This document shows, in pieces, positions 13,201 through 55,330 of a stretch of DNA of 64,000 nucleotides. How positions within the stretch are numbered: the first letter of the stretch is position 1; each line of letters opens with the position of its first letter. The translations under genes and the position numbers were made by a program. The DNA lies in assembly GCF_910592395.1 (NCBI RefSeq), contig NC_088319.1, forward strand, positions 17,794,001 through 17,858,000, written 5' to 3'. The notes under the pieces were generated by a model, which had not been told where the DNA came from, made no database searches, and saw only the letters and a program-made list of their open reading frames with translations. The DNA is from Lineus longissimus. Its lineage: Eukaryota; Nemertea; Pilidiophora; Heteronemertea; Lineidae.

Positions 13201-16200
13201 TTGTGGCATCACTTACATATCCTTGTACACTTTTGAAAAAGGACTTGCTGCCTCAGTCTTCCTGACATTTACGGCTGAAAGGTCAACTCATCTGGCAACA
13301 AGTTCATTACTTTGAAGTATTTAGTTTCCACCATCACCTGAACACAAGAAATACAAGGGCTAAGCAAAGGGAGCCTACAAATCAATGAATCAATTGATAG
13401 GTTGATCAGTCTGACTCACCATGACTCTTGCCTTTAACTTTTCATTGAGCCGGATTGCCTCAACGTATCTTGCCCTCTGCAGGTAGTACATGACTAGTAA
13501 CTCGAGCGAGTTTGGCTCCGTGCTTTCTTTGAGATACTGGACTAGGTGGCGCTCCTCGACACCATCGAGGGAAAGCTGGAGGAGTTTGTCGACAGTCTTG
13601 GCTGTAAGTGAAATCATAAACAACGGTGTCTGGTTATGACTTGGTCACACTCCTCACAAAGGGTGAACAATGACAATGTAATGTGAGATAGAAGAGACAG
13701 TGACTTGAGGTGGACATCATCAACTCTGTGAACAAGACTTTCAGGACGTAGAACAAGACACTTACTCTGCTGACAGCCGACAAATAAATGCGAGAGGAGA
13801 TCTTCAGTGTTGGACTGATCACGCACAGTTCGCTGGTATTCATAAGCTTCAGAGATCAAGCTGAAATAAGACGATCGTCAAAGGTATTAGTGACCAATTC
13901 CAAAGGTATAAGATATGATTAGTGACCAATTCCAAAGGTATAAGATATGATTAGTGACCAATTCCAAAGGTATAAGATATGATTAGTGACCAATTCCAAA
14001 GGTATAAGATATAATTAGTGACCAATTCCAAAGGTATAAGATATGATTAGTCCACAGTAACATTCGAAAGGTCACTTCACAGTATGTTTCAAGTGTTGAA
14101 TGTTTGAGTTGGACGCTTTACCCGACTAGACCACACAGCCCTTCTTGTAGCTTCTCTTCAACTTACCCATTCGCCAAGAGAACAGTCAGTTTAAGCTTGA
14201 CATCTTCAGGTGTCACCATGGCTGGCTGTCGTGTCTTCATGTACCTGACCGCCAGTTTACTCTCCGCTTGGTAGAGGAGAGCTTTGATGATACGAGTGTG
14301 CTGCCAGGGCAGGATGTGGCTCGTCACCATTGGGCTTAAGAGCATATGGACTGCTGCCTGGAACATGTGAAGTAAATATTGAACATCAAATAATCATCTC
14401 ACATAATCTTGGCACTGGAAGGCCTTGATGATGTGGGTAAGCAACACATGGACTACTGCCTGTCACACTCCATGACAAATTAAAGTCCAACATTTGTACA
14501 TCTCATTCTCAACTCTCAAAGGACTACCGTTGAAAACGACTCATAATAACACAAGGATTCCTTGGAAAGCTCTCAATGAATCCTCTCTGGTGGTATTGTC
14601 AGATCTTCAATCAAATCCTTCAATGTCCATTCCAAATTGGTGTCAGTCTCAACAAAATGGCCGATTCTTACCTCAAAGTCTTTGTGATCCAATAGCCACA
14701 GCCCCTGAATGAGTTTCATCATTCCTGCCGGAACGTTGAACGCCTGAGCATATTTGATCCAGCGGCCCAAGATTCGGTCTTCCTTATTGTCTGCAGCGTA
14801 CATGAGCAAGTCGAAGATGACATAGACGACAATGCAGTGTTTGGAGATGACCGGGACGTCCTCTAAGAGATACAGGTTGAGCAGAGCCTGTAAATGACAA
14901 ATGAAAACGTGTCAAACTCATGTGCAGAACAGACCTGTTCAGGTAGCTGACACTGGAGGGAGGTTAGGAAAGGTCGGCACAGTTGTAGTCATCAATGGTT
15001 TGGGTTTAAAATGACATTCAAATCAAGGAGCAATAGAATTCAAATGACTGGCTTAAAGTATGATACGAGGAGAAAGCAGACTTACATGGAGGCTCGGGGG
15101 AGGATAGAGTCCACTGCCTCCCTCCTTATCCCAGAGCTCTTTCACAGCTGAACCCATATTGTCCACCAAGCCATCTATCATGAGCAGGTCGGTGAAGTTC
15201 ATGTCGCTATGTAATCTGTTCAACTCCTGCCGTCGACCCATGAAGGCCTGGGCCAATGAGGTGGCGGGGAAACTGAAGTGATTGATGGGGCCATCTTCAC
15301 CTTCGGCATGTTCAGGAAGAAGGCCATTGACGAGGAACCACATCACAACCTGGATGTGTTCACACAGCAACGAGACAATGCTCAGCTTCGTCTGCAAGTC
15401 TCTTGTACCTGGCAATCAGAAAGGTTGATCTTGGAAATATTGAGAAGGCAGGAGTATATCTAATGGAACCAAACAGGAATCCTTCAAAGGACTCCACAAA
15501 TTAATCCAGTCGATTCTGAAATCTTTCAATTGAGAAGAAACATGTCCTCTTGCTTACACTTCCTGCTGCCACCAACTTCCTCAAGGCCAAAACAATGTTA
15601 CAAAACAGGGAGCGCTCATGTTGTTTCTAACCCGACTCACCTTGCTCTGTTGTCGGTGCAGCCTGGCTGATGAGAAGTTGGAAGACAAGCATGAGATGTT
15701 TGAGTTGTGTCTTCTGTTTGTTGATGGTGGTGCTGGTCTGTTCATCAAGTGGCACGCCACTACAGTCGTACAATGGCACACAGAGCTTATCAAGCGTATC
15801 CTTGATCTGAGTGACCTTCTTCCAAGCCCAGTTTAACATGTATCTGAGATTACAACCAGCCTGACTGTAATCTCCCTTGGCCCATTGGGTGATGCACGAG
15901 CCTATGAAGCCGATCATTGCATGCTCCAGACAGACTGTCAGTAACGCCTCACGCTGCATTGTAGCGGGGAGTGTAGCACTGCTTCCACCGAGATCAAACG
16001 TCTTTGGAATCAGACCGGCGTGGACGAACATTTCGAATGCTTCGTGAGGATCGGCTAAAGCTTTTGGTCCTGTCTCGTTCAAGGAAGATAGTGTCTCTTG
16101 CTGGATGCCCAAGTAGCTACATCGTACCACCCCATTATCAGTCAAACACTTCACATCTGCAAAAGAGAAGAATATGTCATATTGATCCGTTGATGAAATG

Positions 16201-19200
16201 CTTTCATTATTCTTAATCTTCTTCTTCTGTGATTGCTCTGCAGGGTGATATTGTCTCTCACTCTAGCAAAGGTCAAAGGACTTGAGTAGCACTGAATGGG
16301 TAGCTCCTAGATACCCCAGAGTACCTCTGCACAGACCCAATGAACCTAACAGTTGTTGTCAAAAGCATTGGGAGAGACCTCGGTCATTGAAAAGTGCTAG
16401 ATGAGAGCCTGGAAGAAGAGCAGGGTTCCCCAGTGAGCTATGACTTACCAAATCCAAGAGAAGATGGGTAGAAGTGTTGTTCAGGTGTTGGTGTGAGAGA
16501 AGAGTAATATCTGGTGACCATTTCCGCATCAATATGAGCTGCCAACAAACCATCTGGAGCGGCTGCCTCCAAGATGTCCTCCATGTTACAGAAGGAGAAG
16601 AACGGACAGACGTCATGGCTACCGTTGGTTGGGCGGACTGATCCCGGCATCTGGGAGTGGTACCATCGATTCATGTCAAACAGGCCGATGTAGAATGAGG
16701 ATTTCGAGAGCATGTCTTCTGGGACGGCTTCCCAGATAAATGCGCACAAGCTGAGATCAGCACCTGTTGGTCCTGGAAAGAATGACAGGCATTCAGGAAG
16801 AATCAACTTCATTTCTGGGACGTTCAGCTTTAGACAACTGAAATGACTTCATTCTGATGGATGACAGTGGTGATGCTCATTGACTTCAAAGCTCTTGAAA
16901 GTGGGGCTTATCACTGATCGTTGGGTAGCAGCTGAATCTTCTTGTTAAGAACCAACTGAATGTTTTGTGGAAGTTGATCTGTGATTTTATCCATTAACAG
17001 CCAAAACCCAGAGACCGAGTGTGTGACTGACCTACCCTCAAAAGAATCGTCATCAGGTCTTGAGACCACCGGGCCGTGAGGATCTTCAATGACATGACAT
17101 GAGATGATGGCACTCCCCGCCAGGGCGGCGTTGCTCATGTTATATGGGTCGACGGACAGGATGTGTTCAAACCGACTGATGGCAGACGTCATATCCTGCG
17201 GAGGGTTGAAAGCAGATGGGATATTGGATGAGACACTCAACATGGTGCATCATGGTGGATGTGGTTTTCGTAGCAAACGTCTTGGTCAACAATGTCAAAA
17301 GAAATTGTACCATAAACAAAACAAAACTGGTGCAAACAGGAACAACACATGACTTTGACCCCAAGGGATATTTGGAGAGGATGACTACCATTAACAAAGA
17401 GGGGAGATGATCTGATGTGGCCAGCCTACCTTATATAGAATGCCATGATGCTCGACATGTACTCTTCGGTTGTAGCCAAACTGATAGAGAGACAATGCTG
17501 AACAATCTCCATCCCTAGAAAGATATTACAAACACCAATATTCATTTGGTAAGGAAATGCAGAAAATCGCACCTGCCAACACTCGTGAACAACATTGGCC
17601 CAAGCTGAACTTTCCCAAAGTCATGTGGTTAAGAAATCCTGTTCTCCAGTGAGCACTTCCACTGTAGTGATCCTGATCAAATTCCATCTTGACCCACATA
17701 ACGACACACAAACACACCAGGATGTTTATAGATAGATAAGAGAGAAGTAGGGAAACCCCATGCCATTAGTACTCAGGTTACTCACTAGTTATCATATTGA
17801 TTATTAGTGAATGTATACCGGGCAGCGACCATAAACAAGGAGGACGTCTGCTGCGTACCAAGACTAACACATCAATATGAACCAAGAAAGCCAAGAAGAG
17901 GCCAGGGGAGAGGACACCCAGATAACAAATGATGCAGTGAAGGAAGAGACCATACATGAAAGTGCCACAGCAGTTGACATTGAAAGAGAGAATGGACTCG
18001 CGGTGGTCGGTAAGCAGGGGGTTAATCATGAAAAAAACCGAGACTCCAGCTAATGAAAAACGGGGGAATATTTCGTCTCAGAAATCAGAAGTGAACCAAC
18101 GGCGTTATCGCTTCGTTGACACTGGCAAAAAATCAGCTTTTTTCAAGAGCCAAACTTTGAATGAACTTCGACCGTTTTACAACGGCTCCATGCTCGACCA
18201 GCGGATGGCAGAGATCAGGAAGTCAATATACTACATCCGCCAACACTGGCATGAGTTTGACACGTTCCTGACATCGTTGAAACAGCTCATGTTAACAGAC
18301 GGAGAGCTGACCTTTGAAAAGCCTCAAGTTCAATCATACATGGAGAAACTACTAACGACTAAGAGAACTTGGTTACAAGAGTTTGAAGTGGCGTTTCTAG
18401 ATATCAGCTACGATGCTATTAAACTTTACACATGTTCTGAAGGATATGGTCACATTTATCGACTCAGTAATGAAATCTTCCGCCGTGAAGATTCCATTGA
18501 TGTGGCGGAGATGATTCAGAGTGTGACTTTCTTGGTAGAGTTGATTAACATTGATCTGTTTAACTATTGCCTCAAGAGGCCCGAGATGATGCATTACAAG
18601 GGGATGGTGTACCGCGGGATGTGCCTCTGTGACGTGGATCTTGATGCCTTCAAGTCACTGCGACATGAGCCAATGAACAGGAGAAACATTGCAGTACCAC
18701 TCGGTGAGTTTTAAGTCTTAGTATTTGTCTGATTTTGTAACCACTTTACAAGATTAAAGCCTCAAAACACACAAGAACCCTGCCCAATATCTGACTCGGT
18801 AACTGATAACTTAGTACTGTCATGTCAAAATACTAAATGCCATGAGTTATTTCTGATGTGAAGTCCTTTTCCAGGTTTGTTCTCAGGCAGCTCCAGCTTG
18901 GATGTCGCCCTATCGTTCATTGAAGAAGGCCTAGAAACAAGCCCGGTGGGAAAACCAAGATCAACCCTATCCTCATGAAGATCAATGTGATCAGCCTCAA
19001 TAAAGAGTACATCGAATACTACACCAAGCGATTCCCAACATCCGTCCTCACTACAATATGTGCGGTTGATGTTCACAATCTTTCTGTATTTCCAGATGAG
19101 TTTGAAGTGCTGCTCCGTGGCCCCTTCATGCTCGTTTTGGATATTTACAAAGACCATAACCTCTTAGGAGGACCCTGTCATGTTTTAGAAGCAGTCATGC

Positions 19201-22046
19201 TGAACGCTAACCGTGATCATATATCATCAGCGCACCTTGGTGACCAGGATACGTTAGCACGCGATATGTTTGCTACAATGGTTGCTGTCACTCGGAGTGA
19301 GTTTGCGGTGAAGTACTGTGAGAATCACGCGCTGATACATGATGGATGGGAATATCAGAAGATACTCCACGATAACATAACCAAACTTGACATCTTGATG
19401 AAGGATGATTTACAAGGTCAGCAATAGAATCTTACGAGTCTTTGTTAGCACAGTATCTGAGGAAGTTACACTTTATTGCTTTGAAAAAGCTTTCCCTCAA
19501 AATCAGACTTGGTTGCTGGTGAATATGTCAGCCACGCCATGGATAGAAAATTAGGGCTGATCATGATACAGGGCAACCCCCACATATCTTGATGTTCAGG
19601 GACATCAATTTTGGGAACAGAAATGAATAACTACTTACTTTTTATCGACTAGAGTTGGTCCCCTGACGGCCCAGAGGTAAACAAAGCACCTTGGGTCATT
19701 CTCTGGCTCCTGGTAAATGAAGTGGGTTATCGGTGCTAGGTCGTCCGATTCATATGAAACTGTATATCTGCAAATGAAAGGGGCGAGTCCATGAAAAGTC
19801 GGGGAGTTGTGAGAATTTGGGGATGAACTAAAACCTGCAGTATCTTGAATGTCTGTCACGTTTTGAAATGTTTACCTAGACACACAAGCCTGCAGTGCAC
19901 AGGCTAACTTATAACTCTAGGGGATATTTCCGGTGGAGACTTTGACAAAGTATTTTTCTACTTGCCGTCTGATGATGACACAGAATACTTCTCTACTTAC
20001 TCAAGAACAGGGCTCGTTAACTTCCAAAGCTGAAAACACCCGAAGTTGAATCCTACGGCAAGCACGCCCATCTGGGGGACGAACTTGATGCAAGTTACAC
20101 ACACATTGGCTGAAAAGGAAAAAACTAATCATCAAAATTCCTTTCGGTACAATATTCCACAGAACTGTAGCCTTTTCCAGCGTTGACCACAATAGGACAA
20201 GCAGCGCCATCTGTTCACATGTGCAGAACACAAAAATTGTATCCGTTTCATCTTATCATTGAAAAATATATCATTGTTGATTACATAGCAGATGAAAGTT
20301 ACCTGTACTGAAAGTTGCCAAGACAGTCCCATCAGGTTTACGATAGAGGTAGGATGATCCTCTATGACCATCGTTATCTAGCGTCAGACAGAGATGTTCC
20401 CGTTTTCTGAGTGCTACGTCCCGCCTGAGACTGAGGTTGGGCATCCTTGGAGAGATGGAACAGAGCTGACCAGGGCGCACCTCGTCTGATAACATGTCGT
20501 CGTCCAGGCATAAATCTGAAATATAAGAAAGCTCAACACAAACTCTATTTTGTACATGAAATTTGAATAAGCAAATTTTACCAGATGGTAAATACTGGAT
20601 ACAGAATCAGTCAGACAGCTGTTTCTTGTAGCAAGAATCAAGTATTGGATGCCTTCAGAGTTCTTCACAGTTTTGAATGATAAACTTTGAATTTCTGTCT
20701 TACAATAGATGCATTGTTGATATCTCAACTTTCTGTGACACATTGTGGACAATGTCTAGATTTCCCATTTCATGGTGAATGTTCAGCTGCAGACTGAGGA
20801 CAATGATCTCACCTATGAGGAACACCTTGGCCGACATGAGACCCACCGCTACCAATCCACAGTAAAGCTGCAGGTGTTCACTAAACACTTCCTCTACCAG
20901 GTCCATTTCACTTGAAGTCACCGGCTCAACACAAGTCACCTGAAACAAGACAATGACGCATGTGTGGTCAAACTCCACTGATCGATGAGCGGATTGAGTT
21001 CAGGGGAAAACGAGATAAAGGGATGACTAGCCAAAGATGACATGCCTGGCCCTAGTATAGGTGTCACTGTGTCAGGTATACAGCTGTCCAATCTGTGACA
21101 TGCCTGGCCCTAGTATAGGTGTCATTGTGTCAGGTATACAGCTGTCCAATCTGTGACATGCCTGGCCCTAGTATAGGTGTCACTGTGTCAGGTATACAGC
21201 TGTCCAATCTGTGACATGCCTGGCCCTAGTATAGGTGTCACTGTGTCAGGTGTACAGCTGTCCAATCTGTGACATGCCTGGCCCTAGTATAGGTGTCACT
21301 GTGTCAGGTGTACAGCTGTCCAATCTGTGACATGCCTGGCCCTAGTATAGGTGTCACTGTGTCAGGTGTACAGCTGTCCAATCTGTGACATGTTGGCATT
21401 ACCAGCTTAAAATCCTAACCACAGATTCATTTCCACGCTAGAAATTGAATAATGTTGATAAAATTCAAAAGTTCTGCACCAGAAAAACATGGGCATTTCA
21501 TCTGCACTCAATTTCAACTCACCTTTTCTGGAATTTCAATAGCTTTAACAATCTTAGATGTCTTGATATCAAAAATGCAAATCATTCCATTGTTGCTGGT
21601 GTCCAAACCGACCAATAGGTGCGGTACACCATCATATTCATACTCCACAACACACATGATTGTTGTCTTCGTATCTTTGATGACAGAGCCAAAGGACCAG
21701 GCGGCGATACGCTCGCTGGTCGAGCTGTTGACGACCTCGAGGCTCGCCCCACGGGTAATCCAAGAGAAGCTACCATCTAGAAAAGGAAGTGAGATATACA
21801 AGTCGACATTGTGATTTTATGGTCAGATATCTTCGGCCTTTTGATTGGTGGATCATATTTTATGAAAGGAACTGACCATGACCCCCCCCACCGGGTTTTG
21901 GATTTTAACATGCCAAACAGACTTGTACCTTTACTGAAGCTTCCAAGCGACACCTTGCCGTCTCCGTGAGCCTTCTCCAGAGCATCGAGACTAGCAGGCT
22001 GGAATGTTGTGACGGGGGTCGTAACGTGTGGCAATAACTCTTTCAT
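7249..22046 (-). CDS. AHCTF1: ELYS nucleoporin / AT-hook protein (AHCTF1), complete, 25 exons
   Basis: Exons 1-25 (plus coordinates): 21929-22046, 21523-21776, 20813-20939, 20303-20515, 20001-20109, 19639-19767, 17430-17514, 17036-17195, 16449-16772, 15641-16156, 15086-15408, 14672-14887, 14167-14357, 13766-13860, 13420-13601, 12982-13126, 12670-12817, 12149-12367, 11753-11943, 11228-11542, 10523-11124, 8582-8735, 8083-8208, 7610-7898, 7249-7447. All phases agree, giving 1,809 aa (human is about 2,270). Residues 1-506 form the beta-propeller (YQEPENDPRCFVYLWAV; YIGLFDMNRWYHSQMP). Residues 507-1062 form the alpha-helical ELYS domain (LIQGLWLLDHKDFE). The rest is disordered, Ser/Thr-Pro rich, with basic SPRR/RSPRLASK-type DNA-binding patches. 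Family role: ELYS binds chromatin and recruits the Nup107 complex to seed post-mitotic nuclear pores. The C-terminal tail is shorter than in vertebrates. The start matches the family N-terminus (MKELLPHVT). Confidence 0.95.
9121..9577. repeat. 57-bp minisatellite, about 8 copies, ELYS intron 21
   Basis: The unit begins CACACCTTGATTGTGG and repeats almost perfectly every 57 bases. Because 57 is divisible by 3 and no stop falls in one frame on each strand, it creates long open frames in both directions. It lies between ELYS exons 21 and 22, so those frames are not part of ELYS. Confidence 0.9.
9940..10010. repeat. 20-bp short tandem repeat in ELYS intron 21
   Basis: GAAAGTTCATTCTACAGTRG recurs about 3.5 times. 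Two overlapping plus-strand open frames (9740-10000 and 9940-10341) switch frame across it; neither shows a recognised domain. Confidence 0.7.
13887..14046. repeat. 32-bp tandem repeat, 5 copies, ELYS intron 13
   Basis: The unit begins TTAGTGACCAATTCC and recurs at 32-base steps from 13887, with one A/G change in copy 4. It sits between ELYS exons 13 and 14, about 25 bp from exon 14. Confidence 0.85.
17956..19427 (+). CDS. ADP-ribosyltransferase-like gene nested antisense in ELYS intron 6; apparent frameshift
   Basis: Two segments, 17956-18703 and 18875-19427, are joined by a clear GTGAGT...TTTTCCAG intron in phase. Features of arginine-type mono-ADP-ribosyltransferases (R-S-E class) appear in order: VYRG (Arg at 18613-18615), SGSSSLDVALSF (18883-18918) and EFEVLL (19098-19115, the E-x-E). 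About 210 residues of helical sequence precede the core. Between the S and E motifs the frame shifts near 18948-18951 (a GGGAAAACC run): the first frame stops at TGA 18972-18974, while the second is already open upstream. This is either a one-base loss in the gene or an assembly error. No signal peptide is seen. The start is uncertain: an acidic open frame begins at ATG 17877 in another frame, and ATG 18028 is also possible. Family role: transfer of ADP-ribose from NAD+ to protein arginine. The target is unknown. Confidence 0.68.
21039..21391. repeat. 58-bp minisatellite, 6 copies, ELYS intron 2
   Basis: The unit starts GACATGCCTGGCCCTAG and repeats every 58 bases, with only C/T and A/G variants. 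It is intronic, between ELYS exons 2 and 3. Confidence 0.9.
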
Positions 22047-26978: not shown

Positions 26979-38839
<11,861 letters not shown>

Positions 38840-42834: not shown

Positions 42835-45800
42835 TCATGATTTGACCGTGCCATTTGCCTTTGGTGCTGTGATCGTGTTCTTGCTGGCATCCTTGTCGCT
42901 CTCTAACTTGCGTGCCTTCTCTTCCTCGAGAGCTTTCTGCATTTCTGTGTAATACTCGAGCGCCTTTCGCACAGGGTCAATGATGTCATCCTGCAACAAG
43001 TCATCGGGAAATCATAACCAACATTCAACAGGCTGGTTAAAGATCGTCTGTGGCGCAAAGAACTAAACTTACTAGGAATGTAATGCTGGCGGTCAACAGC
43101 GTCTCACAACTTCTTACCTGAGTTAAAGCCAGCACACAGCAGGAGACTACAGCGCATGTCCTACTCTCATACCCAATCAATTTAGGATTGCTGGTACCAT
43201 GCTAAATTGTGGGCCCAGGATAGGGTAAGCTGGAGGAAGCATGTAGTCGTCGCTTAGCTGTTAGAAAGCAGTTGTTTACCTTGTAACAGGATGGTGTTAC
43301 ATGTCCATTGATGTCAGCATGACGTTATCAGCTGACCAGTTTACTAACAACACGACCCTCACTGTTGCTGATAAAGCAGTCATCACAGCAATGGCCGACT
43401 AGGAGCACCATGGTTCTGAGGGGTGGCAGCCTCTCAGATATAGCAACTGCAGACTAGAGCTTGCTGATACAGAGTCACTTTCTTACCTCTATCACAGGAA
43501 AGAGCTCTCCCAGAGCCTCAAACAACGGTAGCAGAACAAACTTGATGAAGCCGACCTGAGAAGAACTTTTGGAGACTTTTTCGCGATCCATGAAGGGGGC
43601 CACAGGCAGACCTTCCAGTTTCTCCATGTCACTCTGAAAGGGACAGACAGTCATTAGTAATATGCTTGTTATGAATATCTACTAATTAGTTGTTAATGAC
43701 TTCAGGTCATTCACACTGACTATCAGCTTAAAATATCCAGAATTCGAAGTTTTTGGTCATCTTAATCAATAGAAATGGCAATAGGATTTGAAGAAGAACT
43801 GATTATAATATGAAAAGTTAATGATTTTCACGGTAAGTTAATGGTCTAGGGAATGTGTCTCTGAAAGTGTAAGTCATCATAGTACGACATCAAAGATCTT
43901 TGTCACAATCACCTGGTTTAGGTCATACCCTTGTTGGTCTCCAGGTAAACATTCAATCTAATGTAGAGTGAAGTCTTTGTTTGTGAACAAGGGTATGCTT
44001 GTGACTGGCAGATTGGGCAATATTGTGGGGAATGATCTCTGTGTCCTAAAGGGTTAACATGAGTTATGATGAACCTTCTACCTGTTGGAAGTACTCCTCA
44101 AGCAGACACTCGAGCCATGGCTCTGCCACCTCCATTGGCCGCGCTTCGTTTGAGATGTCCGCCATCTTGATACAGATCATCATTAGCTAACAAGGAGACA
44201 AACAGACAACACTTGACAGCGTTATACTAACACCACACATGCACAATAGAGGGCGCCTCAGATTCACTCACAGTATGAGTGGCATACATGATGAGCATCT
44301 ACCAGCTTGGTTTAGCAATGGCAAAACTGGACTAGCTTCGAGTTTATGTCCACACAAACTATCGCCAGTCATTTTTTGTGTCCCTCACATCAAACAGGAG
44401 TGAATCTGATAGACGAGATATTGTGTTATAAAAGCCAGATAGTCAAGGAAAGGGTTAGGTGCTGAAACAGCAGAAAAATAATTGAAATCATTTTCAAAAT
44501 GCACCAATTAAAATGAGATAAAAGAAAGACACATCATTATCTTCTTATTAAAACCCGCCTCCAATACGCTGATATCAGGAGGCAGAATTTGCCTGAACTA
44601 GTCACACGATAAGGCATGTGATTCAGAATTTGCAATTTTTGATTGGACAATCCACCGAGGAATGGATTTAATAAGAAGATTTTCATAAAAACCTAAAACT
44701 CTATTAATAACTCAGTACAAAGAATCATTATGTTGGAATGCTCTCGAATCCGTGCTATTAAACCAGGTATTATTTCATGGTACTTCTGTTTTCCTACCTG
44801 CATAAAAAACTCAGCCATTAAACAGTCAAACCATGGTTGAGCTACGTCCAGGGGTCAAGATTCATTTGACAGGTCACCAGCTTTGACCAAAGAAACAATC
44901 AGCAGACGTTGGTAATGAAAATTGGTGGCAATTTAGATTTGATACACTTTGTATTGATTGGCCAAGTATTTTCAGTCCAAATTGTTGATAAGAGAGCTTA
45001 TAAACCAACACCAGGAGAATCACAAGTTAAGGGAAGATAGAATTGTTTAAGGTTACCATAGCAACAATATGGAAACCACAGTAACCAAATGGTACCAGCA
45101 ACCAAAGTAAAACCACGGTAACCAAATGGTACCAGCAACTTGAGGTACACCAGGCTAGTCACCATGGAAACATGCTAACCTGCATGAAGAATTCCTGCAT
45201 TAAACAATCGAACCAAGGTTCAGCGACCTCTGAAGGTCGCGCCTCATTTGAAACGTCAGAAACTTTTACGATGACCATCATCAGCTGTTAAAATAGGATA
45301 AATTAGCATAAATCACTTCATATTTTTGATAAACCACATTGGCAAGTAGATGTTGACCTCCATGTTGCTATTTGAAGTCTCTATACAGGGGGAGTTGTGT
45401 TGGAGCAAATAAATACAAAGCAGCACAGCTACAGCAAATTAAGCATGTCCTGAAAAAGAGCCGAGAACCGTACCAGAGCACTCTGCATGCGCATGCGCAG
45501 AACTGTACCACTGCATGCGCATGTGCAGAACTGTACCACTCTGCATGTACATACTGCATGTACGTGTACATGTGCATACAGAGAACTGGACCATTGCGAA
45601 TGCGCATGTTGACATGCACACCGCAAAACTGTAAAAAAGGACGATAAGTCTACAGTTGAATAAAATACGACAATAGAAGAGGAATACCAGGAATCTGAAG
45701 AGAACTCAACCATGCTACGGAGACTGACATTGATGTGTAAACAGCTGCCCAGTGCATATACAACATCAGAGTTTACAAAGTCACATGCGTATATTTCGAA

Positions 45801-48800
45801 CCTGATTAAAAAATTCTTGTAATAAACAGTCTAGCCACGGCTCGGCCACATCCATGGGTCGCGCTTCATTTGAGATGTCGGACACTTTCATTAAGATCAT
45901 CATTAGCTGAAGAGGGACACATTGTTGATATATTAATACTGCCAGCAGACGATCAATCGGTCAATTCTTGTTGTTGCATGCCAAGTCACCTACATTTTAC
46001 TTTGAGGGCCAAGTAGTAACAGATTTGACCATGCCAGCACTTGATGGATGAGGGGAGACAGATGGTTTGAACTACCGTCCTGATACCCTGTTGATCAATA
46101 CCTACCACTGCTTTATGCTCCTTATTGCTGAAGTCAAAGTTTTTGACTAAACTCTTGAAACTGTTGAGTATTTCTGAATGTTTTGCCATGTCTGTTGCTA
46201 AGATACACCTGAAAGGTGAGCAGATGATAGGAGTCATGATGGTGATAGCAAGGTTTGGCAAATCAAACAATCGTTCTCGTATGACTCATGATGTGTGCGT
46301 GGTCCAAAGTGTCACCATATTGGTATGAGGTTTGCTCCTGCCAGAACTCCCTCATATCAATGTCAAGGGGTGGTTTATTCATGCCTATTTGGTGAAGTGC
46401 ACCTTCACAGATGGTCCACCAAGCGATCCGAATCCATCTAAGATTCAGGTTGGCATTTCAGGGGATTGGTACAGGAAGTCATGGTCACTTGGAGAGGGGC
46501 GCAAAGTGCCTTGCCCTAGGTCACAATTCTTACCTGATCATCCCTTCACGTACTTTCTTATACGTGTCGATTGGCAGGTTTTCGAATATGTTTGCCTGTG
46601 GTTTCTCAAGGATCTCAAAGGCTACGGCACAGTGGTGATTCTCCAACGGTGAAATGTCGTTATACATGAGCGCTAGTTCAGTTCTTGCATTGATCTGAAA
46701 GAAAGTCAAGGTCAAGGTTAAAGGTCAAATATGGGAAAAGTTGAGGTGAAAATACACCAGTCAGACTTTCAAAGTGGATCAAAGTGACTTGTTCAAGGTC
46801 ATATTCTTACCTGATATGCATTGTTATACCCTGGATGGTCCAAGTCGTGGCAGATTGCGGACGTGATGAGGACAAGAATATCAATAGCATCGAGATATTT
46901 CGGCAAGTCTATTAACCATGTTAAGCCATACATCTGAAACAAGAAGAAATGTACAATCAGAGTGTGCTTATCAAGAGCTTTCCAACCAATGGTCATGTCA
47001 ATAGGTTTACCAATGGAACTATCCAATAAAGCTTATCAAGAGCTTTCCAACCAATGGTCATGTCAATAGGTTTACCAAGGGAACTATCCAATAGAGCTTA
47101 TCAAGAGCTTTCCAACCAATGGTCATGTCAATAGGTTTACCAATGGAACTATCCAATAGAGCTTATCAAGAGCTTTCCAACCAATGGTAATTGTCATTAG
47201 TTCCAGGTTTACTCGTGAAAATCACTTTTTTCTCGTTGAAGAATAACTTACCATTTGAGCAACCATGAAACAATGTTTGAAGTTATGAAACGGGACAGAA
47301 TTATAATGAATGTAGACCTCGTAGAGCCACAACTGTAATGTCTTCAACTGAAACAGGACAAACGAGTATCATTTCCTGTCAGCCACACAATGAGCTGAAT
47401 GCCACTTTACATCGCATCAAAAGTGCAGGCGTGACACTTCTCTTAAAATGGTTTTTCTTAAATATTTTTGCAGGATATTGCATTCCAAAATCCAACTACA
47501 GTCAGATCAATCTCTTTGATATTTCAAATTCCACAACATTTTTCACTTTCCTTTCATTTATTTCCATCAACATTATGATAAGATGGAAAATCCTGATTAA
47601 CCTAATGCATGTGAACATTGTAGGATTTCTTCCACTGTCTCCGTCGAGATGACGTCTTCTTCAGATGACAGCCACTGTCTATTTTCCCTGGGCTCTTTTT
47701 TTAACCGCAGCAAGCTAATATCGTAAATGGATCTCAAGAAATGTGGGTGTGATCAGCACATTATACTTTCTTGATCACTGTTAACCCTTGGAAGCACAAC
47801 TGGGCTCCTTTGTTATTCTATTTCTCTCAAGCACTACATCTGCCTCCTATTCTGGTGGTGTATTAGAGAAAACAGTGATACACACTACAGTCCAAGCGCA
47901 CACCCAACTTCAGGAAAGTTCTGGTTAGCATTCAATATATGGCCATGTCTTGTATCAACCCAGTGACTGATTGGAAGTTCCCTTACCTCTATATTAAATG
48001 TTGATAAAAACCCCAGATCTATGTACATTTGTTGTAACAGTACCAGGATTTCAGCATCATCCCACTGCCAGTTGTCGAAGGTCGGTTTACGGAGGTAGAC
48101 ACGAACTGATTCGGTCATCTGGACTTGACTGCAAGTAAACATAACACATCGTTTAGAGTTACCACTCTACCATTACTCCCCCTAACCTTCACATGAATTC
48201 TTGACTGGTAGTTGCTTCTTAAAGGGTTAAATGCTGTTGTTATCTCGCCACGCATCAGTGTGTCTTCCTGATGTCAGCATGGATACCTGTCATGAGTAAA
48301 TGGAAACATCCCAATAACAGTCATAACGCACTCCTGTGGAGCATTATGGGATATGTCAGTATTGATAGAGCTGTGACCTGCATTGGCCGACACCAGGCAA
48401 TATTCAGTGTTTAACCGACTGACAGCAGAGAGGTGCTGTTTCATTCACGGTTTTTTTCCACCTGAGCACAAACTCGAGGCAGTTTTGATAGTCTTGACAA
48501 CATCCTGGTAATATGCACCTCTTCATGACAAGGGTGACATTTGCTATCCGACTTGTCTGATCGTTTCTTCCGACAGCTATTGTCTTCCATTCACTGTCCA
48601 CATCGGTACCTTGACAAGCATATCAAATTCCATCCAGAGAATTGTCTAGCGGTATGTGCAAGACAGCAGTCACATGACCACGTGTGAGGCATCAGCCAGA
48701 AGGGATCACATCCACACTCGTTGACAAAGTCCCTCTCACACCCCATCTCCAACACTTACCTCATCTTTTTAAACTTCTCAAAGACGCGTTCATAATGTTC

Positions 48801-51800
48801 CTGATCTTTCCGTTTACTGTTGTTTTTTTTGTTCCAGAACGGTTGTAACGACGTACCGCTGGAAATGTCTTTGAAAAGGCCCAACCAGCTCAGGTGCTCA
48901 ACACCCTGGAAATAAAGAAAGAGAGTATAGAGACACTTGGACAAGAGACTGGGAGATGATGCTACATGGCTGTGTTGACATGTTGGTGGAGGCCAAACCA
49001 GCTCAGTAATAGATACTTCACCAAGAACAAAGGATGACGCCATCGTAGGTCCCCTTCATGTAGTACTACTTGAAGACAGCTGGGTACTTCAGAATATGTT
49101 CAATATTTTGAAAATGTAAAACCATGTTTTGAGAAATGATTTGCTACATCAAACAGAATCAGACAGTTCAATTTTCTGGCCGAGATACAGAATCCATGAG
49201 AGCGTTTAATAGACGACATTAGTGAGAAGTGGTGGAGATTCATCTGCATGTCTTGTTATGTTTGACGGTATTAAAAAGCAAGGTGGAAATGGACAACCTG
49301 ATGCCCCTCGCACCCCTCAACGAGGGAGAACTTCCCACATGCTGCTCATCACTAAACAATTACCCATCAACCCCTGCTTCATTTCACACACATGGCCGTA
49401 AAGTTCCCTGAAGGTGATTGGTTGGTAGATAACAGGTCTTAGTGGCTCCATAACAATTTGGGAAATTTGCCCAGCAAATGTTAACCTCTTTGATCTATTG
49501 GCCATGAATTGTGTTAGAGACCAAGAACCAGCTTGTTTATGCTGGCTGATGGCTCATGTCCTAACTCTGGATGTTCTAGCTTAAGCAGTAACAACCTACA
49601 AGATATATTCCCAAGATTATAGCAATTTTCTCAACCCTGGGTTATTTGAAATTCTAGTCAACAATCTCTTATAGGTTCCCTCAAAACAAAACACACATTC
49701 ATACATGAGAAAGGAACAACTATGCACCAACCTCTAATTTTTCCCTGAATGATTCCACCTTGTGTTTTATCTCAGACAACGATTGGGGCAATTCACCATT
49801 CTCAACAAGCAGTTTCTTTTCAACGAGTTGCAATCGTGCCTCCATGTCGATGGAGTTGAAGCCAAGTTGGGAAGCTATTGTGTGACCTGAAAGGACAATG
49901 AGTAAAGGAGGATTAAGGTTCGATTCAGCTGAGGCTTGGAGACTCCTTTAGCAGAGTCAGAAACCAAACGGTTTTTCATATCGCTCTGGCCAAAGTTACA
50001 GAGTTGAACTCAGGAATGTACCAAAGGACACTGGTGTTACACAACACTAGATTATCCTTAGGGTGGGTCCCCCCCCCCCGGACCCCATTCCAACATGCTA
50101 GTTCAGAATCTTAAAGAATATGCTCATCTCAGCTGGCTTCCACTTGAGCATCTTCTGCTGTCCCCATGTGATTCTCAAGTTCGCATATCAGCACGACTCG
50201 AAAAAATAACCAATATTTCTTTGCAAATGCCTCGATAATGAACCGTCGTCTCAATGTATCCCCACAGCTGACTTTACAACCATTTCTCAATATCGCAATT
50301 GGCATCTCTAAAACACAAGTTGCCATGACAATTACCGATAACAAATGGGGACCGGGCAGATGCTTATTGGTAATTTTGTTCTAAAAACCTGCCGGTAAAA
50401 GATTGCGCTTCTGCTGGTTCAGCGGTTATCAACTTAGACCAGGTGGAAGCCTTGCGTCCTGATATCCTTATCGATTATTGGAAAAAATGGTCTTAATCTG
50501 GCCATCTGGTTGTGACTTTGTCCTCCTAAGACCACCATGTTTCTGTCTGCATTTACACTGACTATGCTGATCACTTGTTCAACTCACTGCTTTCATTAGA
50601 GCTGAGGCCTGTTATCATATTAATTGGGGCTGGAGTGGTGAAGCCAGACGATTGTTGATTGATCCCTGATACTGGTGGACATTCCATCCGGAGAATCTAA
50701 TGATGTCCATGTGGTGATTGCAAAACCGGACAGTGTGAGGCAGAGTTGTAATGGCTGAGGGTGTGTGGGTAAGTCGGTGAATGTCACTCCTTGTCCATGG
50801 TATGTCCCCTGACAGTTCTGCTCTGAAAGCCCTGGACTTTTGCTGTGACAGACACCACCGCACCAACCTGCTCAACACAACACGTATCGACCTCACGCTG
50901 GCTACCACAGCATACAGTTTGTTATCATTATCCATAACTAAAGGATCAACAGCAAGAACCAATCACTGGCGAATCAGTATTGTATATCTAGAATCACTCA
51001 AGGCATATGATCACCCATTCAGCTCCCGCGATCACCCATTCAACGCAATCACCATTCCAGTTTGCTCTTTCCAATAAACCTGCTGAAATATTAATAAGGA
51101 CACCGAACTGATCATGCTAATCCTTCGCATCATGCAAGCTCACGCGAGAATCTTAAGTGCTGGGTTGGGCCTACTCATCCACGGTCGCACTTAGTCAGTC
51201 ATGGCTGTGCCAACTCAACCAAGGTCACACCTACTCAACCACGGTCGCACTTAGTCAGTCACGGCTGTACCGACGCAACCGAGGTCACACCTACTCAACC
51301 ACGGTCGCACTTAGTCATGGCTGTGCCGACTCAACCGAGGTCACACCTACTCAACCACGGTCGCACTTAGTCAGTCACGGCTGTACCGACACCACCGAGG
51401 TCACACCTACTCAAACACGGTCTCACTTTAGTCAGTCACGGCTGTACCGACGCAACCGAGGTCACACCTACTCAACCACGGTCGCACTTAGTCAGTCACC
51501 ACCGAGGTCACACCTACTCAACCACGGTCTCGGGCAATGTTTAGACAACTGCCAATGAATTTCACACAAAATCAATTATTCATTGCTTTCATGTACTTCA
51601 ACTAGTTCCATGAGAAGATGGCGGAGAAGAAAGAATTTGGAAGGAAGGAATGGAAATGGTGTTTCTTTAGACATGCACTTGGCGGGAAGAAAGAATTTGG
51701 AAGGAAGGAATGGAAATGGTGTTTCTTTAGACATGCACTTGGCGGGAAGAAAGAATTTGGAAGGAAGGAATGGAAATGGTGTTTCTTTAGACATGCACTT

Positions 51801-54800: not shown

Positions 54801-55330
54801 AGAATGATGGAGTGGTTAAATTCAAACAAATTAACTGATTTAGTGAAGGATTAAGATGGTTTTCCAGGATATATTGTTAGTGGCATTTATAAGAATGATA
54901 CACACTGACCTTTGGTTCTAAGTAAATACTGTAAAACCTGCTATATATTTTGTGAACTCTCTGTCTGAAGAATTTCATTAAGATTATCTTAAAGAGAATA
55001 TTTCCAATTTGCTACATGGTTTAAAACTTGCGTGGAGTGTGGATGAAGCTTAGATACGATGAGCTGATGTGGTCTTCCCGGTATCTTTATGACCACAAGC
55101 CTCGCTATCAAAATGGTCAAGTGTGGACTTGAAAGCGTTTGTAAATCCAAGCGATGTATGCAGAAATGTCAACATCTTACCCGACAAAATGGCCGCTACC
55201 ACCTCGAGCTTGTAGCGTGTGTTGGGTGAATTCTCGGCTAACTTGCCCGAAATATTGACTAGGTTTCCCTTTGTGTTGTAGAGTTTAAGGATGTCGTTTG
55301 GTCCTGCTTCTGCCGCTGCTCGGAATGTCT
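42835..55330 (-). CDS. PDE9A: cGMP phosphodiesterase PDE9A (first exon not found)
   Basis: Exons in order: 55181-55330, 49732-49886, 48760-48905, 47987-48128, 47252-47347, 46811-46933, 46534-46694, 46106-46208, one of three alternative exons (45802-45906, 45180-45284, 44082-44186), 43487-43633, 42835-42990. All phases agree, giving 493 residues in hand. The N-terminal part resembles PDE9A ([10 protein letters not shown] versus the human TPYKVRPVA region), followed by a coiled-coil segment. The catalytic HD domain has [21 protein letters not shown], the DISNE motif in the alternative exon, and QVGFIKF with the purine-binding Gln. Family role: high-affinity hydrolysis of cGMP to GMP using two metal ions. 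The incoming phase of exon 55181-55330 requires an upstream exon, probably beyond 64000 or not recognised. Confidence 0.93.
44082..44186 (-). other. PDE9A: PDE9A alternative catalytic exon, version C (3'-most)
   Basis: 105 bases, phase 0, acceptor CTTGTTAG and donor GTAGAA. It encodes [17 protein letters not shown] and then [18 protein letters not shown]. It is the closest version to the vertebrate exon ([18 protein letters not shown]) and so may be the ancestral one. Confidence 0.9.
44798..44902 (-). pseudogene. PDE9A: Decayed copy of the PDE9A alternative exon
   Basis: Clearly homologous over all 105 bases ([15 protein letters not shown], a stop, then [17 protein letters not shown]), but an in-frame TGA follows DLSNES and the acceptor dinucleotide reads TG instead of AG. 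The GTAGGA donor is still usable. Probably an inactive pseudo-exon. Confidence 0.85.
45180..45284 (-). other. PDE9A: PDE9A alternative catalytic exon, version B
   Basis: 105 bases, phase 0, acceptor TTTTAACAG and donor GTTAGC. It encodes [17 protein letters not shown] and then [18 protein letters not shown]. The metal-binding Asp and the Asn-Glu pair are retained. Confidence 0.88.
45478..45625. repeat. Self-complementary GCATGC-rich tract between PDE9A exon versions A and B
   Basis: Repeated TGCATGCGCATGCGCAGAAC and TGCATGTACATACTGCATG blocks alternate purine and pyrimidine and are palindromic. They could fold in RNA or adopt Z-DNA. The tract sits in the intron that separates alternative exon versions A and B. 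Confidence 0.75.
45802..45906 (-). other. PDE9A: PDE9A alternative catalytic exon, version A (5'-most)
   Basis: 105 bases, phase 0 at both ends, AG acceptor (CTCTTCAG) and a weak GTTCGA donor. It encodes [17 protein letters not shown] and then a [17 protein letters not shown] block. The Asp of SDISNE is the second-site metal ligand of the PDE catalytic domain. It is homologous to versions B and C and interchangeable with them in frame. Confidence 0.88.
46966..47192. repeat. 65-bp minisatellite, about 3.5 copies, PDE9A intron
   Basis: TCAAGAGCTTTCCAACCAAT recurs at 46971, 47036, 47101 and 47166. It lies between the PDE9A exons at 46811-46933 and 47252-47347. Confidence 0.88.
51170..51532. repeat. 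About 60-bp degenerate minisatellite, PDE9A 5' intron
   Basis: The unit CTACTCAACCACGGTCGCAC followed by TTAGTCAGTCACGGCTGT and GAGGTCACAC repeats about six times with small deletions. Confidence 0.85.
51622..51860. repeat. 60-bp minisatellite, 4 near-perfect copies, PDE9A 5' intron
   Basis: The unit begins GGAGAAGAAAGAATTTGG in copy 1 and CGGGAAGAAAGAATTTGG in later copies, repeating at exactly 60 bases. Because 60 is divisible by 3, it is open in several frames on both strands. No evidence of coding. Confidence 0.92.
53079..53192. repeat. 34-bp tandem repeat, 3-4 copies, PDE9A 5' intron
   Basis: CATTCCAACCTCACCATTAT followed by CCAATGCAACATTT recurs with minor changes. Confidence 0.75.
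53785..54172. repeat. 26-bp minisatellite, about 15 copies, PDE9A 5' intron
   Basis: The unit GCTGGCCGCTGTGATGCTGT+AACATC varies only at one C/T position. Since 26 is not divisible by 3, the array cycles through frames, and all three minus frames stay open, giving long spurious proteins. Confidence 0.93.
54240..54640 (+). mobile_element. tRNA-derived SINE-like element, copy 1
   Basis: It contains an A-box TGGCCTAGTGG (near 54474) and B-box GGTTCAAACCC (near 54516) with tRNA-like spacing. Upstream homology to copy 2 extends about 230 bases. Downstream lies a hairpin sequence centred on CAATTG (AGTAAACAATTGTTTACTTT). It is homologous throughout to copy 2 at 56530-56950. Confidence 0.7.

Follow-up and report, generated by a model that had tools for sequence, protein, structure and literature searches.

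A 64-kb window of the Lineus longissimus (Nemertea) genome, that is, the whole stretch of DNA analysed here (contig NC_088319.1, positions 17,794,001 to 17,858,000), holds on its minus strand a PDE9A-like gene in which one exon of the catalytic domain is present as a tandem cluster of homologous copies. We consider it probable, at about 0.78, that one of three intact 35-residue versions of this exon is normally spliced into the mRNA at a time, and that two types of the exon (type 1, transcribed first, and type 2, transcribed last) derive from a single duplication predating the split of Nemertea, Annelida and Mollusca. The choice would be mutually exclusive or nearly so, and the resulting cyclic guanosine monophosphate (cGMP) phosphodiesterases would keep the Asp, Asn and Glu of this segment and differ around the active-site pocket.

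The exon cluster

Four copies of the exon were located, at the following window positions:

45802..45906, minus strand: alternative exon C, first transcribed, type 1, 105 nucleotides, phase 0 (sequence, frame and splice sites)
45180..45284, minus strand: alternative exon B, second, 105 nucleotides, phase 0 (sequence, frame and splice sites)
44798..44902, minus strand: decayed fourth copy D, with an in-frame TGA, the AG acceptor lost and the GT donor kept (six-frame scan)
44082..44186, minus strand: alternative exon A, last, type 2, 105 nucleotides, phase 0, the version of NCBI isoform X1 (sequence and splice sites)

A first-pass annotation, made from the letters of this DNA, had reported three 105-base, phase-0 exons. 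Translation, splice-site and frame checks found all three intact exactly where it had placed them; the decayed fourth copy at 44798-44902 had been missed. A, B and C translate without stops, and each is preceded by AG and followed by GT. Its further claim that the flanking exons at 46106-46208 and 43487-43633 fit any one version also held, the frame of the catalytic exons being open through the stop codon of the last exon (e7) with A, B or C alike; with version C the open frame reaches back to exon a, at 55330. The versions match at 22 (A-B), 26 (A-C) and 26 (B-C) of 35 residues (63-74% amino-acid identity) and at 68, 78 and 75 of 105 bases, respectively, and the introns between the intact versions measure 517 and 993 nucleotides. 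Neighbouring homologous exons of similar length, with a shared frame and splice sites, are the structural hallmark of a mutually exclusive cluster, and this is the arrangement observed.

Version C, the only one tested, matches the Pfam domain PDEase_I, and it aligns end to end with human PDE9A chains (residues 393-427). In a six-frame scan of the window four places scored 125-186 and the next best 35. Across the genome of 391,118,348 bases (391 megabases in the available text on the assembly, PMC8593623), the version-C peptide matched five places at E <= 0.001, four in the window and one on another contig, in a search that scores the best candidates only. None of the other ten modelled exons had a second copy above threshold on the coding strand between 42500 and 56000. 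Within the repeat family, copy D is closest to B, at 72% over 92 bases. The donor of D has strong predicted U1 pairing (-10.7 kcal/mol) despite the lost acceptor.

The best protein match of the exon model is P0004, the NCBI PDE9A-like isoform X1 of L. longissimus, from which it differs at nine residues, all within the alternative exon; P0004 carries version A, and the gene model with version A is identical to isoform X1. P0004 stands for four member sequences, of which the representative is readable and three are hidden. Its modelled fold matches PDE9A crystal structures (TM score 0.84-0.87 by target length, 57-59% identity, first 15 hits), and two single exons of the window gene match PF00233 (PDEase_I) in Pfam. 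Judged by domain and modelled fold, the predicted product is a PDE9, a class I phosphodiesterase.

Homologous exons in other animals

Three protein searches, of which the best 120 of 1558, 470 and 856 hits were taken, yielded 288 different clusters of proteins (180 + 108 scanned). The cluster sample is not neutral, one search having targeted tandem forms; and because the clusters were grouped at 90% identity with only the representatives readable, isoforms within a cluster are hidden. Two or three head-to-tail copies of the exon were present in 9 of the 288 clusters, all lophotrochozoan gene models: the annelids Owenia and Paralvinella (three copies), the bivalves Dreissena and Mya, the nemertean Tubulanus, and the gastropods Littorina, Physella, Aplysia and Bulinus. 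Each of the 108 clusters that the arthropod search was first to bring up, most of them arthropod, had one copy, a single copy in a protein being no proof of a single copy in the gene. The exon duplication is no peculiarity of Lineus: the comparison with related species proposed in the first-pass annotation recovered tandem copies in gene models from annelids, molluscs and a further nemertean.

The copies correspond by position. Of 32 species pairs drawn across phyla, 28 showed greater likeness when copies were paired by position (first to first, last to last) than when they were crossed, 3 showed less and 1 was tied; positional pairing also exceeded within-species similarity in 29 of the 32, with 3 ties. 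These counts cover 11 species, with the middle copies of Lineus and Paralvinella left out, and the species pairs are non-independent, some exons being identical within bivalves and within gastropods. The oyster labels rest on resemblance, exon order in that species not having been observed; without the four oyster pairs, positional pairing was better in 24 of 28. When the near-copies of Mya, Physella and Bulinus were dropped, the observed first/last labels were the best of 128 assignments for 8 species, and for the 7 species of known exon order (no oyster) the best of 64, scoring 97 vs 79 for the next best, or 75 vs 71 with cross-phylum pairs only. When the labels of a whole phylum were flipped, the cross-phylum score of +75 fell to -23 or -29. 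The last copies have Ala at residue 401 in 11/11 species and the first copies have Asp at 418 in 11/11 (numbering throughout from the human PDE9A alignment). On an exon tree from which the same three near-copies were dropped, the label 'first' required 3 changes (0/500 shuffles as low) and the label 'last' 6 (shuffled mean 7.1; 107/500 as low). The positional matching suggests that first and last copies go back to one old duplication.

Compared by eye, version C and the one exon of an amphioxus protein (P0034) are the same at all but 1 of 35 residues. Exon B had no clear counterpart outside Lineus among the sequence sets compared. In the annelid gene model of Paralvinella palmiformis (P0124), which has three tandem copies, the middle copy matches Lineus B at 21/35 residues; it is not clearly the counterpart of B, and extra copies may therefore be of separate origin. 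B and the decayed D would be later additions to the Lineus cluster.

Alternative use of the two types

The clearest case of alternative use comes from the Pacific oyster. P0014 (source lgn, longest contig 2,293 bases, read as cDNA) contains type 2 alone, and the NCBI Magallana gigas isoform X2 (P0019) contains type 1 alone. Over the aligned length the two show 8 mismatches, of which the exon accounts for 7, and one 9-residue gap elsewhere, with flanking residues identical at 220/220 positions; from this near-identity we infer that P0014 is of the same oyster species. Because the two forms are near-identical elsewhere and have one version each, alternative use is well supported by sequence for this PDE9 exon family. 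Single-version forms also occur beside tandem ones in Tubulanus (one type-2-only form, one tandem form) and Owenia (one type-1-only form, one tandem form and one truncated form).

Mutually exclusive exons are recognised by having no transcripts that join two members (PMC5740500, in the part available). No tandem form was present among 25 transcript-like clusters (short lgn or jgi contigs), from which P0218, of mixed sources, was excluded. The first-pass annotation had proposed interchangeable catalytic-core exons; the two oyster forms back the alternative use, and strict mutual exclusivity, in Lineus as in the family, is putative. Its caution that exons of whole codons would keep the frame even if included in tandem was apt, given the nine tandem clusters. 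Lineus itself probably uses B and C in addition to A.

Constraint and active-site residues

The three intact versions look maintained by selection on the protein sequence. The ratio of nonsynonymous to synonymous proportions of differences (pN/pS, Nei-Gojobori) is 0.18 for C-B, 0.19 for C-A and 0.22 for B-A, with synonymous differences at or beyond saturation, and 0.29-0.34 for the comparisons that involve the decayed D. Asp402, which we take to be a metal ligand, is identical in A, B and C, as are Asn405 and Glu406.

The versions differ elsewhere in the segment. Residue 401 is Ser in C and B and Ala in A, residue 403 is Ile in C and A and Val in B, and residue 424 is Phe in C and B and Tyr in A. 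Type 1 retains the helix of single-exon genes (Phe424), and type 2 in several species has the mammalian-type PDE9A residues Glu411 and Glu422, with Tyr424 in Lineus A and Paralvinella. In human PDE9, according to the available text of PMC3069055, one subunit has the hydroxyl of Tyr424 in contact with the inhibitors IBMX and BAY73-6691, and Gln453 is stabilised by Glu406. The Lineus isoforms may differ in kinetics or ligand binding.

Splice sites and mode of selection

At the four intronic consensus positions of the donor, C matches 1, B 2 and A 1, vs 2-4 in nine constitutive donors. Enforcement of exclusivity by frameshift is excluded, every version having 35 whole codons, and steric exclusion by short introns is unlikely with introns of 517 and 993 nucleotides. 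As for incompatibility between U2 and U12 sites, all sites are GT-AG, no U12 test having been made. The repeat search revealed no complementary element shared beside each version, and no convincing docking or selector RNA structure was seen in the one Lineus sequence. Our best guess is that the version would be chosen through weak donors together with trans-acting factors.

Weighing of explanations

Several observations count against one version per mRNA, one old duplication and selection through weak donors. No Lineus transcript with B or C was found, the one readable Lineus protein carrying A. The tandem clusters, 9 of 288, include NCBI isoform models of Dreissena, Mya, Tubulanus and Aplysia, and Owenia P0094 has one copy plus a cut second copy; joint inclusion is predicted by these gene models and may be real. 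As 12 of the 25 transcript-like clusters came from the arthropod search and one was nearest to a sea cucumber, only ~12 bear on lophotrochozoans. Three of the 32 cross-phylum species pairs favour the crossed pairing and one is tied. Ala401 also occurs in oyster and Littorina first copies, and echinoderms as well as many arthropods have it in their single exon; the 35-column exon tree is unresolved, with no starred branch and neither type a clade. What speaks for one old duplication is therefore the order of the copies and their pairing. At the splice sites, whole-donor matches overlap (alternatives 6-7/9, constitutive 6-8/9), and so does predicted U1 pairing (-5.6 to -8.0 and -6.1 to -11.0 kcal/mol). 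Complementarity between introns was within the shuffled range for 6/6 pairs in an ungapped-helix test (13-60/60 shuffles as good); with RNAduplex, of six intron pairs one stood at 1/40 shuffles, one at 4/40 and four at 22-40/40, this test being a poor one because whole introns could pair.

The duplication might have occurred independently in each phylum, the likeness of first to first and last to last copies being parallel adaptation. Type 2 does not form one group in the short exon tree (its 6 changes were equalled or bettered by 107/500 shuffles), copy number varies, the middle copies of Lineus and Paralvinella are dissimilar (21/35), and the species pairs are non-independent; yet order and residues agree by position (Ala401 in all last and Asp418 in all first copies of the 11 species) and the label score collapses from +75 to -23 or -29 when a whole phylum is flipped, so that we regard separate origins as rather unlikely. 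We likewise think it unlikely that the versions are often included together as cassette exons, with 35 extra residues making a regulatory or inactive enzyme. Joint inclusion would stay in frame, all versions being 105 nucleotides, and is modelled in nine genera, several of the models bearing NCBI isoform numbers that may rest on RNA evidence. Nevertheless, all nine tandem clusters lie on contigs of at least 97 kb and are thus gene models, the transcript-like clusters (0/25, ~12 lophotrochozoan) have none, and the search aimed at the tandem arrangement returned tandem forms from gene models only (best 120 of 470). There is also a weak hint from AlphaFold models that the tandem protein folds badly: residues 399-473 of the Dreissena tandem protein have pLDDT values almost all < 50, while in the Lineus single form the block means over residues 401-450 are 57-65, a weak comparison between different proteins with shallow alignments.

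It is very unlikely that Lineus uses A only and that the other versions are relics on the way to the decay already seen in D. The single readable Lineus protein does carry A, but it represents four members; reading frames and splice dinucleotides are intact in all three versions, whose pN/pS is ~0.2 at synonymous saturation; and type 1 (C) is retained in annelids and molluscs. Duplication in the assembly, named as a refuting outcome in the first-pass annotation, or collapsed haplotypes, both favoured by general possibility only, are effectively ruled out by the 26-35% divergence of the copies in bases, the protein constraint and the same duplication in gene models of other phyla.

A second PDE9 gene in Lineus

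Lineus has a second PDE9 gene, on contig C19. In a tree of the catalytic domains of 20 proteins, the C19 gene pairs with naked mole-rat PDE9A (100/100), and the window gene falls on the other side with 17 other proteins, its companions being amphioxus, hemichordate, starfish, fish, arthropod, sea anemone and other lophotrochozoan proteins. For this tree, the Oryzias row was dropped (no anchor motif), the naked mole-rat protein entered with only the last of its repeated catalytic blocks, and copy 1 of a doubled exon went into the C19 chain. The PDE9A side consists of only two sequences, one of them partial, too few to date the subfamily split. By catalytic-domain sequence, the window gene falls into another PDE9 subfamily than mammalian PDE9A, and the C19 gene is the latter's counterpart in Lineus. 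The earlier naming of the window gene as PDE9A needs correcting, and PDE9A-like is the better name.

The C19 gene also has a duplicated phase-0 catalytic exon, as the window gene does, but the duplication affects the preceding exon (LILATDMARH...), the counterpart of the 35-residue exon being single within the 9.9 kb read. Two intact versions with AG/GT sites were read from the contig:

L006 7565-7449, minus strand: doubled exon of the C19 gene, version of 117 nucleotides
L006 6679-6566, minus strand: doubled exon of the C19 gene, version of 114 nucleotides

They are alike at 16/25 residues over the ungapped part and make another candidate pair of alternative catalytic exons. Copying of type 2 from the PDE9A paralogue was considered and found no support, last copies matching the C19 exon at 23-26/35 residues and first copies at 23-24/35.

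Relation to known systems

Mutually exclusive clusters, such as those of insect Dscam, Mhc and Ca-alpha1T, arise from tandem exon duplication and many are ancient, as far as the available text of PMC9741552 and PMC6071210 goes. The Lineus cluster resembles them in its adjacent homologous exons of similar length that exchange one protein segment. What differs is that the segment exchanged here is part of a cyclic nucleotide phosphodiesterase's catalytic core, that exclusivity is putative, and that no convincing docking or selector structure was found. Human PDE9A splice forms differ in their 5' exons with the catalytic exons constant, and phosphodiesterase splicing in general is described as N-terminal variation with a constant catalytic domain (available part of PMC1647287). 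Like the human variants (PDE9A1-21), the Lineus forms would belong to one enzyme family with alternative exons, whereas in Lineus it is an exon of the catalytic half that varies. Among the splicing changes tabulated for TDP-43 loss is one in Drosophila Pde9, mutually exclusive exons being unmentioned in the part of that source available (PMC3385985), and the open-access literature covered, mostly titles and abstract openings, contained no description of this exon cluster.

We put forward tentatively, as a possibility more doubtful than the splicing itself, that a splicing switch of ancient lophotrochozoan origin changes how the active site of this cGMP phosphodiesterase is tuned. Splicing would then alter the wall of the active site, as opposed to the N-terminal variation described for phosphodiesterases, and one gene could supply enzymes of different affinity or pharmacology to different cell types, for example larval apical-organ neurons. 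A pde9 is expressed in such neurons of oyster, flatworm and annelid larvae (PMC10396302; the PDE9 gene is unspecified in the text available), which makes them a place to look for regulated exon choice. If the duplication is older than the divergence of nemerteans, annelids and molluscs, matched isoform pairs could be compared across phyla, and such natural variants would allow a test of how pocket residues influence cGMP affinity and the binding of inhibitors. The second Lineus PDE9 gene would, moreover, have evolved the same trick on a neighbouring exon.

Constitutive exons and neighbouring genes

The remaining exons of the window gene are as follows (exon model; exons a to d also by comparison with P0004):

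55181..55330, minus strand: constitutive exon a
49732..49886, minus strand: constitutive exon b
48760..48905, minus strand: constitutive exon c
47987..48128, minus strand: constitutive exon d
47252..47347, minus strand: constitutive exon e1, with the HNFKH motif
46811..46933, minus strand: constitutive exon e2, with the CHDLDHPG motif
46534..46694, minus strand: constitutive exon e3
46106..46208, minus strand: upstream constitutive exon e4, ending at a codon boundary
43487..43633, minus strand: downstream constitutive exon e6
42835..42990, minus strand: last coding exon e7, with the stop codon

The first coding exon (29 residues) lies ~6.6 kb past the end of the window (L007 6697-6611). The intron between e1 and e2 contains a 65-base tandem array (3.6 copies, 96% matches) at 46966-47200.

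Two long open frames on the plus strand, at 17941-18714 (257 residues) and 18924-19427 (167 residues), had no Pfam match at 0.01; in NCBIfam the longer one had a single match far under the cut-off and the shorter none, and the PDB matches of the 257-residue frame were weak (E 0.06 and 0.32). They lie on the strand opposite the matches to an ELYS nucleoporin gene (window 14573-16848, minus strand; PF16687 and PF13934, with matches at 14573-14911 and 16438-16848). A gene for the catalytic subunit of a phosphoinositide 3-kinase occupies 28997-37555 on the plus strand, with a match to PF02192 and one to PF00454 just under the cut-off.

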